A stretch of 64,000 bases of DNA. Origin: Myxococcota bacterium. GTDB taxonomy: Bacteria; Myxococcota_A; Polyangia; Polyangiales; Polyangiaceae. Position numbers and translations under genes: made by a program. Shown here piece after piece: positions 54,573 through 61,937 of the stretch. How positions within the stretch are numbered: the stretch's first letter is position 1; each line of letters opens with the position of its first letter. The notes below the pieces were generated by a model. The model worked only from the letters and a program-made list of their open reading frames with translations, did not search any database and was not told where the DNA came from. The stretch is from contig CAUJEM010000067.1 in NCBI GenBank assembly GCA_963169915.1, positions 1-64,000 on the forward strand, read 5' to 3'.

Positions 54573-56063
54573 TCAGCGGTCGTCGTAGATCGACGGGGGC
54601 GCCGGCCGTGGGGGCGGCAGCGGGGGCGCAGGGGGCGCAGGGGGCGCGGGGCGCGTGGTGGGGCGTCCGCCCGGGGGCTGGGGCTGCGGGCTCGGCGCTG
54701 TGCTCGCGGCTTGACTCATGGCCGCCGAGGGCGCGCTCACGGCGGGGGCGGACGGCGCCGCCGAGGCAGGCGCCGCCGCACTCCCTGGCCCCGCCGTCGC
54801 AGCGCCCGAAGCGCTGGCGCTCGCCTCGCCGTCGGGCGCTCGCCTCAGCAACGGCAGCGCGGCGAGTGCCAGCCCCACGCCCCCCACGCCCACGGCCACG
54901 AGCCAGCGCCAGGGGCTCGCCCGCCGCGCGAGCGGCGCACTCGCCGTAGCCTGGCCTCCAGCCTCCACCGCCGCGGCCGGCTCGGCGATGGTCACCGCCC
55001 AGCGCTGCGCGGGCTTCGCCCCCGCAGCGAGCGGTGCGGTGATCGCCCCTGGGAGCTGGTGCCCCTGGGCCGCCACCAGCTCCGGGGTCCCTGCCGCCCA
55101 GGTCGCGCCGGCTCCCTCGCCCCTCGGGCTGGCGAGCCGTTCCGGGCCGCCCGTCGCCTGGAGCACCTGCGTGAGCGCTCGCACCGCCGCGCCCGCGCTC
55201 GCGAAGCGCCGCTCCGGCTCACGCTGGACGCAGCCGAAAAACCAGTCGTCGAACTCTGCCGGCAGCGAGCCGGGAGTTCCGCCCAGACTGCGCAGCCGCT
55301 CGCTGGGCCGCTCGAGCGGCTGCACCAGCACCTCGCCAAAGAGCTGCGCGAGCGTGTTCCCCTCCCCCGCTGCGACCCTCCAGTACGAGCGACCGGTCAG
55401 CGCGTAGAACACGATGAGCCCCAAGGCCCAGACGTCGGTGCGCACGGTGACGGCCGCTCCCGACGCCTGCTCCGGCGCCATGTAGAGCGGCGTCCCGCGG
55501 ATCTCTTGGCTGAGCTGCGTGTCCGCAGAGAGCACCTTGGCGATGCCGTAGTCCAAGATCTTCAGGCATGGCGCGCCGTCTTCTCGTTGGGTGAGAAACA
55601 GGTTCTCCGGCTTCAGATCGCGATGCACGATGGGCGCCGGGGCTCCGTCTTTTCCGACATGGGCATGGGCCTTGTCGAGGCCGCTGGCGAGCTGCCCCAT
55701 CAGCGTGACGAGCTGCCCCGCCGGCAGCGGACCGCTTCGCTCGACGAGCTGCTCCAAGGTCTCCCCGCTGAGCAGCTCCATCGCCAAGAACGGCATCTTC
55801 GTCGCGTCGTCGAAGCCGGCGTCCAGCACCTGCACCACGTGCTGGCTCTGGATCCGGCTCGCGACGCGCGCCTCCAGATGGAACTTCTCCACGGCGTCCC
55901 GGGACGCCAAGACGTGCGGCCAGAGCACCTTGAGCGCGACGCGCAGCTCCGTGCTCATCTGCTCGGCGACGTACACCGCCCCGAAGCCTCCCTCGGCGAG
56001 CGGCCGCTCGATCTTGTATCGGCCGGCGAAGAGCTGGCCCGGCCGGAGCAGCTCAGCGGTCAT
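54573..56063 (-). CDS. Membrane Ser/Thr protein kinase
   Basis: A 496-residue Hanks-type kinase: Gly-loop AEGGFGAVYVAE (23-34), Lys45, HRDLKPEN (147-154), the metal motif as DYG (171-173) rather than DFG, and APE (196-198). After the kinase lobe come Ala-rich spacers, one transmembrane helix (WLVAVGVGGVGLALAALPLL) and a long Pro/Ala/Ser tail ending PPSIYDDR outside the membrane. It is the third gene of a minus-strand unit after a TPR protein and an FGE-like lipoprotein, 30 bp downstream of the latter. Confidence 0.92.
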   Translation of the reverse strand: MTAELLRPGQLFAGRYKIERPLAEGGFGAVYVAEQMSTELRVALKVLWPHVLASRDAVEKFHLEARVASRIQSQHVVQVLDAGFDDATKMPFLAMELLSGETLEQLVERSGPLPAGQLVTLMGQLASGLDKAHAHVGKDGAPAPIVHRDLKPENLFLTQREDGAPCLKILDYGIAKVLSADTQLSQEIRGTPLYMAPEQASGAAVTVRTDVWALGLIVFYALTGRSYWRVAAGEGNTLAQLFGEVLVQPLERPSERLRSLGGTPGSLPAEFDDWFFGCVQREPERRFASAGAAVRALTQVLQATGGPERLASPRGEGAGATWAAGTPELVAAQGHQLPGAITAPLAAGAKPAQRWAVTIAEPAAAVEAGGQATASAPLARRASPWRWLVAVGVGGVGLALAALPLLRRAPDGEASASASGAATAGPGSAAAPASAAPSAPAVSAPSAAMSQAASTAPSPQPQPPGGRPTTRPAPPAPPAPPLPPPRPAPPSIYDDR

Positions 56064-56093: not shown

Positions 56094-57071
56094 CTACGGC
56101 TGCCATCCCGTCGACGGCGCGCAGCAGCGAAACCCGATGTAGACCTCGGCCGTCTTGCGCTGCCGTGAGGAATTGCTCTCACAGCTAGGGTCAGTGTCGC
56201 TGACGTACGAACCGCCGCGCACGTTGCAGAGCCCGCTCTCACCCGTGGTGGAGCAGGTGGCGCCGGTCCACTCCGCGACGTTGCCCACGAGATCGTACAC
56301 GTGGCTCTCCGTGGCGCAGCGCGAGAGCGACTTCGCGTCCACGCGGCTACAGGTGGACGTGGGCTGGTTCGCGCAGCCGCTCGTACCGTTCTGGTAGGTG
56401 TTGCAGGCCTCCACGTCCAAGGTGGAGCGAGAGTACGGATACCGCCTCGCCCCGTTCGCGCTGCAGACACCGTACCAGTCGCTCTGGGTCGGGTCCTTGA
56501 AGCCGCTCGCGTGGTCACCACACAGGGTCTTGCCGGCCCACTGGCAGAAGTAGTAGGCGTCACACCAGTCCACGCAGCTGACAGGCGCGTCCGGGGACTC
56601 TACCGGCTGACCGCTGAGGCAGCTCGGCGGGCGCGCAAAGGGGTTGCTGCCCGCACCGCCGTCAGGGATGCCGACCCCCTTCCAGGCGCAAGCGTCCGTG
56701 GGGGTGGGAGGTGGCGACTGCAAGAAGGCGTCGTACTGCTCGACGGTGACCTCGGTCTCATCCATGAAAAAGCAGGAGCCGTCCTGGCGCTGCTGGGGGA
56801 TGAGCTTCGGTCCACGCATGGGGTTCGCGGCGTGGGTCGCGGTGAGGCAGCTCGGCGGTGCACCCGCGCTGCCGCTCACGCCTCCGCTGCCGCTCACGCC
56901 TCCGCCTGCGCCGGCGCTCCCCGCAGCGCCTCCGCCATCGGGGGGCGACGCGCCTGCAGCCCCGGCGGCGCCAGCCGACCCCTCCTCGAAGTCTTCGAAG
57001 CCGGCCACCCACTGACACCCCACCAGCGCGACGGTGAGGCCCAAGCTCCCGACGAACAGCGCGCGTCTCAT
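56094..57071 (-). CDS. Formylglycine-generating-enzyme-like (SUMF1) lipoprotein
   Basis: The 325-residue protein has a lipobox (TVALVGC, Cys19), a Gly/Ser/Ala stalk (~28-72), and a SUMF1/FGE-type fold: CFFMDETEVTVEQYDAFLQS, PVSCVDWCDAYYFCQWAGKT, HVYDLVGNVAEWTG, RGGSYVSDTDPSCESNSSRQ and IGFRCC. Cys residues are abundant, as disulfides in an exported protein. The Cys pair that makes FGE catalytic is not clearly assigned, so it is more likely a binding or non-catalytic member, like those linked to bacterial kinases. Its ATG overlaps the TPR gene stop by one base. Confidence 0.85.
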   Translation of the reverse strand: MRRALFVGSLGLTVALVGCQWVAGFEDFEEGSAGAAGAAGASPPDGGGAAGSAGAGGGVSGSGGVSGSAGAPPSCLTATHAANPMRGPKLIPQQRQDGSCFFMDETEVTVEQYDAFLQSPPPTPTDACAWKGVGIPDGGAGSNPFARPPSCLSGQPVESPDAPVSCVDWCDAYYFCQWAGKTLCGDHASGFKDPTQSDWYGVCSANGARRYPYSRSTLDVEACNTYQNGTSGCANQPTSTCSRVDAKSLSRCATESHVYDLVGNVAEWTGATCSTTGESGLCNVRGGSYVSDTDPSCESNSSRQRKTAEVYIGFRCCAPSTGWQP

Positions 57072-60768: not shown

Positions 60769-61899
60769 TCACGGGGCGCTCGGCGCCCGGAACGGGCCCG
60801 CTTGGAGCCCCTGGATCTGCGCTTCTATCCACCGTCCAACCTGCTCGTGCGGGATGAGGCCCTTGCCGTCGGACACGTAGCTGAGCCCGCGTAGCACCTC
60901 GGCGTAGGGGCCGAAGCCCTGCACCCGGAAGGGGATGACGATGGCGGTCCCGCCCTCGGCGCTCGCGCTCTCGATGAAGGCGCGGATGCGCTGCTCCGCG
61001 GCGGCGCGCTTGTCCGGCCAGTCCTCGCGGAGCGTCTCGACCTGCAAGCGACGAAACGGCGCGCGGGCGCCGACCGCCGCGGCGCGCTGCTGCAACTTCG
61101 CGAGCCAGCGCTCGTTCTCGGCGTCGTCCCCCGGGCCGTGCGCCAAGATCAGGACGTCCTCGCGCTCGGGCGCCTTGCTCAGCGCGCCGACCCGGTCCGC
61201 CAAGACGATGCCCATCCCCTCGGCGTCGGCGAGCCCCTGCTCGGAGAGCGCGAAGCTCGAGCGCGTCTCGAGGCGGAAGAAGGCCATGCTGTGGCCGCCG
61301 TGCGCACCGTGCCCGCCGTGCGCACCGTGGCCGCCGTGCGCCCCGTGGCCGCCGTGCGCCCCGTGGCCAGCGTGGTCCGCGTCACCCGCTGGCGGCGCTC
61401 CCGGCGCCGCCTCCTTGGAGCTCGCCGCGAGCTGCGCGGCGTGCTCGGCCATGATGGGATGTACCGCGTGCGCGGCGTGCTCTCTACCCGGCGCCCCCGG
61501 ACGTAGCCCCAGGATCTGCTCCGTCTCCGCGAGGAAGCTCTCTCCGCTGACGAAGAGCCGGACCACGCCGATCTTCCGGACCCCACGCGCCTCGAGCTTC
61601 TGGACCGCCTCCTGCAGGCTCGCGGCGTCCGCCATCCCGAACGCCACCTCCAGCTCGAAGCGCTGGCGGAGCGGCGCCACGGTCTCGAGCACCGCGGCGT
61701 TCCACGCTGGCTCTCCCCCATGCGCCATCACGACCACCCCGAAGCCCCCGGCGGGCTCCGCGGTGGACGGCTCGCTCTTGGGAGCAGGAGGGCTCGCCGC
61801 GCAGCCGGTGACGACGAGCGCGGCCGCCATGAGGCTCGTGACGAGCGCGAGCCGTTCTAGGCCCAGGGAGCAGAGGAAGGTCCACCATCGATGCAGCAT
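60769..61899 (-). CDS. CbiX-like lipoprotein with His-rich metal-binding insert
   Basis: The 376-residue protein has a lipobox (LVVTGC, Cys33) and two CbiX/sirohydrochlorin-chelatase-like halves: VVVMAHGGEPAWNAAVLETV then VRKIGVVRLFVSGES, and VLILAHGPGDDAENERWL then AIVIPFRVQGFGPYAE. Between them lies a His/Gly/Ala run of GHGAHG hexapeptides repeated four times, followed by GGHS. Cytosolic CbiX enzymes insert cobalt or iron; a lipid-anchored, extracytoplasmic form with His repeats suggests metal capture or sensing rather than cofactor synthesis. A Fur-like site and promoter lie immediately upstream, and the mRNA may be leaderless. Confidence 0.8.
   Translation of the reverse strand: MLHRWWTFLCSLGLERLALVTSLMAAALVVTGCAASPPAPKSEPSTAEPAGGFGVVVMAHGGEPAWNAAVLETVAPLRQRFELEVAFGMADAASLQEAVQKLEARGVRKIGVVRLFVSGESFLAETEQILGLRPGAPGREHAAHAVHPIMAEHAAQLAASSKEAAPGAPPAGDADHAGHGAHGGHGAHGGHGAHGGHGAHGGHSMAFFRLETRSSFALSEQGLADAEGMGIVLADRVGALSKAPEREDVLILAHGPGDDAENERWLAKLQQRAAAVGARAPFRRLQVETLREDWPDKRAAAEQRIRAFIESASAEGGTAIVIPFRVQGFGPYAEVLRGLSYVSDGKGLIPHEQVGRWIEAQIQGLQAGPFRAPSAP
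60774..60788. terminator. Hairpin between convergent kup and CbiX-like genes
   Basis: GGGCGC-TCG-GCGCCC forms a 6-bp stem, six bases past the kup stop and inside the end of the minus-strand gene. No T-run. Confidence 0.3.
61291..61374 (-). repeat. 18-bp repeats encoding the His-rich hexapeptides
   Basis: About four and a half copies of an 18-bp unit (GCCGTGCGC(A/C)CCGTGGCC on the plus strand) code for GHGAHG repeats in the CbiX-like lipoprotein. Slippage could alter the number of His residues. Confidence 0.85.
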
Positions 61900-61907
61900 G
61901 GACGCGG

Positions 61908-61937
61908 CTTATAGTTGATAATGACTTGCAATTGCAA
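61908..61937 (-). promoter_or_regulatory. Promoter with Fur-like binding site
   Basis: On the minus strand TTGCAA (61937-61932), an 18-bp spacer and TATAAG (61913-61908) end eight bases before ATG 61899. The AT-rich spacer contains GTTGATAATGACTTGCAA, which resembles a Fur-family operator (TGATAAT half well conserved, other half degenerate). TTGCAATTGCAA (61926-61937) is also a perfect 12-bp palindrome. The AT-richness stands out sharply. Confidence 0.6.

Follow-up and report, generated by a model that had tools for sequence, protein, structure and literature searches.

The window (the whole stretch of 64,000 nucleotides analysed here) carries on its minus strand an open reading frame, 61899..60769, with an ATG start and a product of 376 amino acids, as the original prediction had described. 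The features considered below are:

60769..61899, minus strand: whole gene, encoding a 376-residue lipoprotein with a predicted class II chelatase fold (open reading frame, motif, model and fold comparison)
61801..61899, minus strand: predicted signal peptide ending in the lipobox VTG-C33, residues 1-33 (called from motif and hydrophobicity only)
61465..61749, minus strand: first lobe, CbiX-like, residues 51-145, with invariant H60 and G88-M89-A90 and near-invariant E84 and D91 (Pfam, alignment and model)
61288..61383, minus strand: His-rich linker insert with GHGAHG repeats, residues 173-204 (sequence, repeat detection, model and linker counts)
60778..61260, minus strand: second lobe, residues 214-374, with invariant H254, R291 and D293 and a frequent H351 (alignment and model)
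61917..61935, no strand assigned: Fur-box-like site that agrees with a Fur consensus at 13/19 positions and begins 18 bp before the ATG (consensus scoring)

Motif reading of the N-terminus gives a hydrophobic stretch followed by the lipobox V30-T31-G32-C33, and the extracytoplasmic location originally proposed is thus borne out by prediction. On one side its neighbour is a K+ transporter gene of opposite orientation; upstream, in the orientation of the gene itself, comes an enoyl-CoA hydratase-like gene with a GH5 cellulase-like gene beyond it. Elsewhere in the window (54573-56063 and 56094-57071) a Ser/Thr protein kinase gene lies near a gene with an FGE-sulfatase domain. A six-frame search of the genome, which is 90.7% complete, found no other CbiX-type gene.

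The original prediction had suggested searching other genomes for the same combination of lipobox, CbiX-like domain and His-rich segment. The architecture does recur: a genome scan found at least 80 loci (designated here by L numbers) in Proteobacteria, Planctomycetota, Acidobacteria, Gemmatimonadetes, Nitrospirota, Elusimicrobia, Aquificota and others. These loci were picked with motifs of the close relatives of the query and at least 80 are listed, so the counts given below do not describe the whole family. Within the phylum of the window, 5 of 377 genomes have a match at E<=1e-12. Members were aligned with the exception of seven out of 85 that are incomplete or have no placed start (L059, L084, L086, L098, L110, L117, L118); L032 was removed later, which reduced the alignment from 78 to 77 rows. 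The signal count leaves out six further rows that are cut or of double length. The N-termini of the remaining 71 single-length rows are lipobox-like (34) or otherwise signal-like (37) and none is neither, with a start choice that favours signal-like N-termini and with doubtful lipobox calls in L071, L046 and L101.

Some members are of double length, with two chelatase-fold units in tandem (L085, L088, L091, L102, L107, L117), the first of which begins with APDRGFLGN-like motifs. Three Manganitrophus plasmids also carry a member, annotated as hypothetical. It is a double-length, four-lobe form (L032:11197-12828; L033, L106), which in isolate GAC4 is broken into several ORFs.

The Pfam CbiX model (PF01903) matches the window protein over residues 63-118, in the first half only, with 20.7 bits (cut-off 22). 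In the six-frame genome search the gene reaches 22.5 bits, just over the 22-bit cut-off, and 68 of 78 family rows are matched at E<=0.01. The second half has no Pfam match; here a second lobe is seen in the structural model (elements 215-367, pLDDT mostly >90). The model was built by AlphaFold2 on the 77-row alignment and has a mean pLDDT of 86.6 and a pTM of 0.79, with values mostly >90 in the lobes. Using VIA-align, the whole model aligns with the complete two-lobed SirB (Z 19.4, rmsd 3.2, 233 residues aligned), with CbiX 4ccs and the periplasmic CbiK of D. vulgaris, 2xvx (Z 16.6 for each), with P. gingivalis FetB, 9b86 (Z 15.8) and with ferrochelatases (Z 15-16). Because of these alignments, the two halves of the modelled protein are taken to be the pair of lobes that normally makes up a class II chelatase fold. 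An alternative description, a single CbiX domain split by an insertion, was rejected: the second half is the second lobe in the fold comparison.

When the family sequence profile was compared with PDB sequences, it retrieved sirohydrochlorin cobaltochelatase/CfbA entries (6m25, E 4e-8) and CbiX 3lyh; neither 9b86 nor 2xvx was listed up to E 10. The window protein used singly gave only a low-complexity His match. In an hhalign comparison of lobe 1 with lobe 2, H60 is paired with H254, while the partner of M89 was not settled.

The ORF, lipobox, CbiX-like halves and His repeats of the original prediction are therefore all present in the sequence or model and, as far as prediction can tell, the protein does adopt a CbiX-like fold and does use its lipobox. 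What changes is how the halves are understood. They had been presented as two CbiX-like halves split by a His-rich insert. Both the halves and the insert exist, but class II chelatases are ordinarily built from two lobes, and the insert sits at the normal junction between them.

The insert itself is clearly defined. The window linker contains 14 His in 80 residues, and its His repeat is encoded by an 18-bp unit present in 4.3 copies (95% match). The AlphaFold2 pLDDT falls to about 43-51 in the repeat region, which suggests that it is disordered. Enrichment in His extends to the family as a whole and is not due to chance, since His accounts for 10.5% of linker residues vs 2.3% elsewhere. Linker length in the 77 rows varies between 18 and 131 residues (median 31) with a median of 3 His; 56 rows have at least two linker His and six have ten or more. 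Since short His clusters are usual in family linkers, the long repeat of the window protein is an enlarged version of this common cluster, an elaborated linker. The idea that the repeat might be the defining feature was tried and rejected as the main idea, the repeat being variable and short in close orthologs. In one search, most of the matches to other genomes outside G029 and G059 fell on the His repeat, and these were not used.

These observations bear on the reading given in the original prediction: a surface protein that captures Ni, Co, Zn or Cu, or a metallochaperone, in which the His repeats are the working part. The 14 His of the window linker and the six family members with ten or more would suit such a role, as would archaeal CfbA (6m25), which handles Ni/Co and also contains a His-rich loop, placed by the alignment directly behind the core of the first lobe. 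The long repeat is nevertheless optional, the close orthologs L004 and L116 having only 4 and 5 His in linkers of 28 and 33 residues, respectively. Together with the heme- and iron-related genes and Fur-like sites described below, this makes metal capture quite unlikely.

In the lobes, the invariant positions over the 78 aligned rows are H60, G61, G88, M89, A90, H254, G255, R291 and D293, and in the final alignment H60 and H254, one from each lobe, are present in 77/77 rows. The metal-binding His pair is reported to be His10/His76 in SirB and His9/His75 in CfbA, where a role is also described for Glu42 (PMC11301274). In the profile alignment, H60 (the AHG histidine of the first lobe) aligns with CfbA His9 and M89 falls at the position of Glu42. 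Position 120, which is near the second metal His and is offset from CfbA His75 by a two-residue loop in the alignment, is occupied in the 77 rows by E (45), H (12), D (7) or other residues. The window protein has E120 there and, although H60 matches His9, does not have the classical His pair of a single lobe. His at position 120 occurs in Brocadia/Jettenia, an Aquificota, Acidobacteria-type members, a Flavobacteriia bacterium and the Azoarcus/Thauera group. A four-His site was also suspected and was ruled out, since the two second positions are never both His in the same row. As a possible parallel, ferrochelatases too use a His/Glu pair. Most members have another residue in place of the second catalytic His and a Met in place of the supporting Glu, so chelatase-type catalysis may have been lost; such a change in the metal site speaks for a change of function.

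One envelope chelatase-fold protein, FetB of P. gingivalis, is reported to insert Mn into protoporphyrin (PMC13402209). By analogy, family members could be chelatases that insert or exchange metal in the envelope. The shared fold and cell compartment would fit, but the family profile does not list FetB up to E 10 and a His near the second metal position is retained only in the 12 rows mentioned, and we regard metal insertion as very unlikely. Another reading is a protein that binds heme or a porphyrin without demetallating it, a chelatase fold turned carrier, which would take heme from a receptor and pass it on. The absence of His at position 120 in 65/77 rows and the Met at the Glu42 position are consistent with this, and one invariant His per lobe would suit bis-His heme binding. 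We return to this carrier below, since it shares with our preferred reading the gene arrangement described next.

Neighbouring genes were counted using a home-made gene caller in which the family gene was forced, after which the loci were re-called. In 32 of 83 listed loci a TonB receptor gene on the same strand is immediately adjacent, upstream in 28 cases (with gaps of -11 to +227 bp) and downstream in four. Thirteen of 15 neighbouring receptors tested (8/10 and 5/5) exceed the cut-off of the NCBIfam heme/hemoglobin model TIGR01786, including that of L055, which is divergent; the two below it are those of L090 and of Manganitrophus in L032. Other, non-adjacent receptors in those loci did not pass (0/4). 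Among 29 receptors inspected, an NPNL-like motif is present in 23, and a FRAP-like followed by an NPNL-like motif in 13. A hemP-like gene is found nearby in 20 of 85 listed loci, and the two examples checked with Pfam scored 62.8 and 62.3 bits (cut-off 25). In L088 and L091 these genes come in another order, with the chelatase-fold gene between hemP and the receptor gene. The receptor-linked state changes at least nine times on the family tree and linkage has therefore been repeatedly gained or lost. The Polyangia clade that includes the window is unlinked: neither the window gene nor its Polyangia kin has an adjacent receptor. In the window genome no receptor exceeds the heme cut-off (best whole protein 132 bits) and no PF00762 ferrochelatase was found, absences that carry little weight because the genome is 90.7% complete.

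The statement in the original prediction that no tetrapyrrole genes are nearby fits the neighbours read at the window locus; it does not convey that relatives sit in heme-uptake operons. A tetrapyrrole gene next to a family member was found, among the neighbours annotated, only in L099 (GlutR). In this Elusimicrobia locus (L099 6883-9930) the member lies between the glutamyl-tRNA reductase gene and genes for Cu/Zn SOD and a Rieske protein, the latter being encoded in L105 too. In Melioribacter (L089:3773-5758) an FTR1 iron permease with a cytochrome c domain is encoded directly downstream of the member, and in L037 (75-1202) a DUF6607 gene lies directly upstream, with a related gene at L083.

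Overall, what the genomes of relatives indicate is heme/iron and not Ni, Co, Zn or Cu, and the original metal-capture reading is only partly supported. Not all linked genes concern heme. Siderophore-type receptors occur near the members of the Azoarcus/Thauera kin (L108, L109) and a siderophore synthetase-like gene near that of L085; a cluster of PepSY-type membrane proteins is present in L032, L056 and L085; and FMN_bind and ApbE genes adjoin the L087 member, their clusters being represented in L101 and L104 as well. These cases would fit a family that is an accessory of periplasmic iron release from ferric siderophores, with the heme linkage secondary. With 13/15 tested receptors of heme type and hemP at 20 loci, we consider a siderophore role highly improbable.

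Potential regulation was assessed by scoring upstream regions against a Fur consensus of 19 positions, with p obtained from shuffling and sites counted at p<=0.02. Promoters of the operons (upstream of hemP or the receptor) have such a site in 14/29 cases and no significant one in the other 15, while inside those operons none occurs directly upstream of the chelatase-fold gene (0/29). Stand-alone genes have a site in 9/52 cases. The site of the window gene (13/19, p=0.002 with 500 shuffles) is one of the two best in the 64 kb. A score of 13 is reached in L034, L036 and L116 as well, but not in L004 or L035. The window genome contains three Fur-family matches.

The gene content of the hosts was examined in 28 operon-carrying genomes (carriers only). 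HemS/HmuS (PF05171) is present in one, heme oxygenase (PF01126) in two and DUF2470 (HugZ-type) in none, while 27 have an ordinary ferrochelatase. Judged by these gene families, operon carriers should be able to make heme and mostly be without the cytosolic heme-degrading families tested, so imported heme is more likely to be wanted for its iron than as heme. If heme is the iron source, its iron must be released somewhere, since most carriers lack the known cytosolic heme-degrading families tested. This argues for iron release and against a carrier that leaves heme intact, which we therefore consider unlikely.

Taken together, the evidence points to iron acquisition in the envelope, most often from heme. 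In our preferred reading, to which we give a probability of roughly 0.5, the window protein is one of a widespread and so far uncharacterised family of class II chelatase-fold proteins that are exported, either as lipoproteins or as Sec-secreted proteins, and serve iron acquisition. In many relatives the protein would be the partner of a heme-type TonB receptor, in an operon of hemP, receptor and chelatase-fold gene. A family member is possibly an iron-extracting de-chelatase. Heme or another iron-tetrapyrrole would enter the periplasm and bind between the two lobes, in a cleft where H60 and H254 would be among the residues that hold it; its iron would be loosened, extracted or handed on, and the His-rich linker could take up or buffer the metal. 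We infer heme as the ligand, the extraction of iron, the role of the His repeats and, for the window member, which has no linked receptor, the same function. Points against this reading are the missing receptor neighbour in the window and its Polyangia kin, the altered metal site, the siderophore-related neighbours of some members, the repeated changes of receptor linkage, the 13/19 score of the window site and the 15 operon promoters with no significant site. The window protein would be connected with heme and iron through homology and a modest Fur-like site, and probably helps to take iron from heme or a similar compound.

A bolder version, which we put forward tentatively and consider rather doubtful, is that the family constitutes a second, independent group of bacterial heme de-chelatases in the envelope, with the class II (CbiX) fold in place of the class I fold of HmuS, in Proteobacteria, Planctomycetota, Myxococcota, Acidobacteria, Gemmatimonadetes and others. 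Periplasmic iron release would involve one His per lobe together with Met/Glu, with the His-rich linkers accepting the iron, and would explain the use of heme iron without heme oxygenases. How bacteria without heme oxygenases release iron from heme is a live question, answered for Bacteroidota in 2025 by HmuS (class I). For this step or one related to it, a widespread class II-fold family of other phyla, encoded beside heme receptors in operons with Fur-like sites, offers a concrete candidate that can be put to the test. It also provides a likely role for proteins so far known by a weak CbiX match or as hypothetical.

Several known systems can be compared with the family. The cytosolic sirohydrochlorin enzymes SirB, CbiX and CfbA share its two-lobed fold and the AHG His of the first lobe, and CfbA also the position of its His-rich loop. 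The family differs from them in having an export signal, Glu for the second metal His in most members, an invariant Met at the Glu42 position and an invariant His in the second lobe, and in being linked in relatives to heme receptors instead of siroheme, cobalamin or F430 genes. With its signal and lipobox, and with a K+ transporter and an enoyl-CoA hydratase as neighbours, the window protein is not predicted to be a cytosolic member of such a pathway.

Exported proteins of this fold have precedents, and a class II chelatase fold outside the cytoplasm is not in itself new. CbiK-P of D. vulgaris has a different His arrangement from the family. It is periplasmic with a class II fold, is not listed by the family profile up to E 10 and is reported to bind haem (PMC11301274). 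The precedent in P. gingivalis is IhtB/FetB, an envelope class II chelatase-fold protein in heme uptake (PMC6460266, PMC13227078, PMC13402209), which is of CbiK type and likewise not listed up to E 10. The description of IhtB is that of a CbiK-like protein of the outer membrane with a possible role in removing iron from heme (PMC6460266). The window protein has the class II fold (from the model) and the export signal (from the motif) in common with IhtB/FetB and CbiK-P. In the open-access literature we found no paper that links a CbiX-type protein with hemP or describes the family.

A parallel in proposed function is HmuS of Bacteroidota, for which heme de-chelation on a class I fold and a Met-rich insertion are reported (PMC12583661). 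Like the family, it is proposed to remove iron from heme outside the cytoplasm, beside a TonB heme receptor. HmuS is a membrane-bound, CobN-like class I protein of 1469 residues with a Met-rich insertion, whereas family members have a class II fold, mostly about 300-400 residues and His-rich linkers; the window protein, with 376 residues and a class II fold, differs likewise from the CobN/ChlH-like class I architecture.
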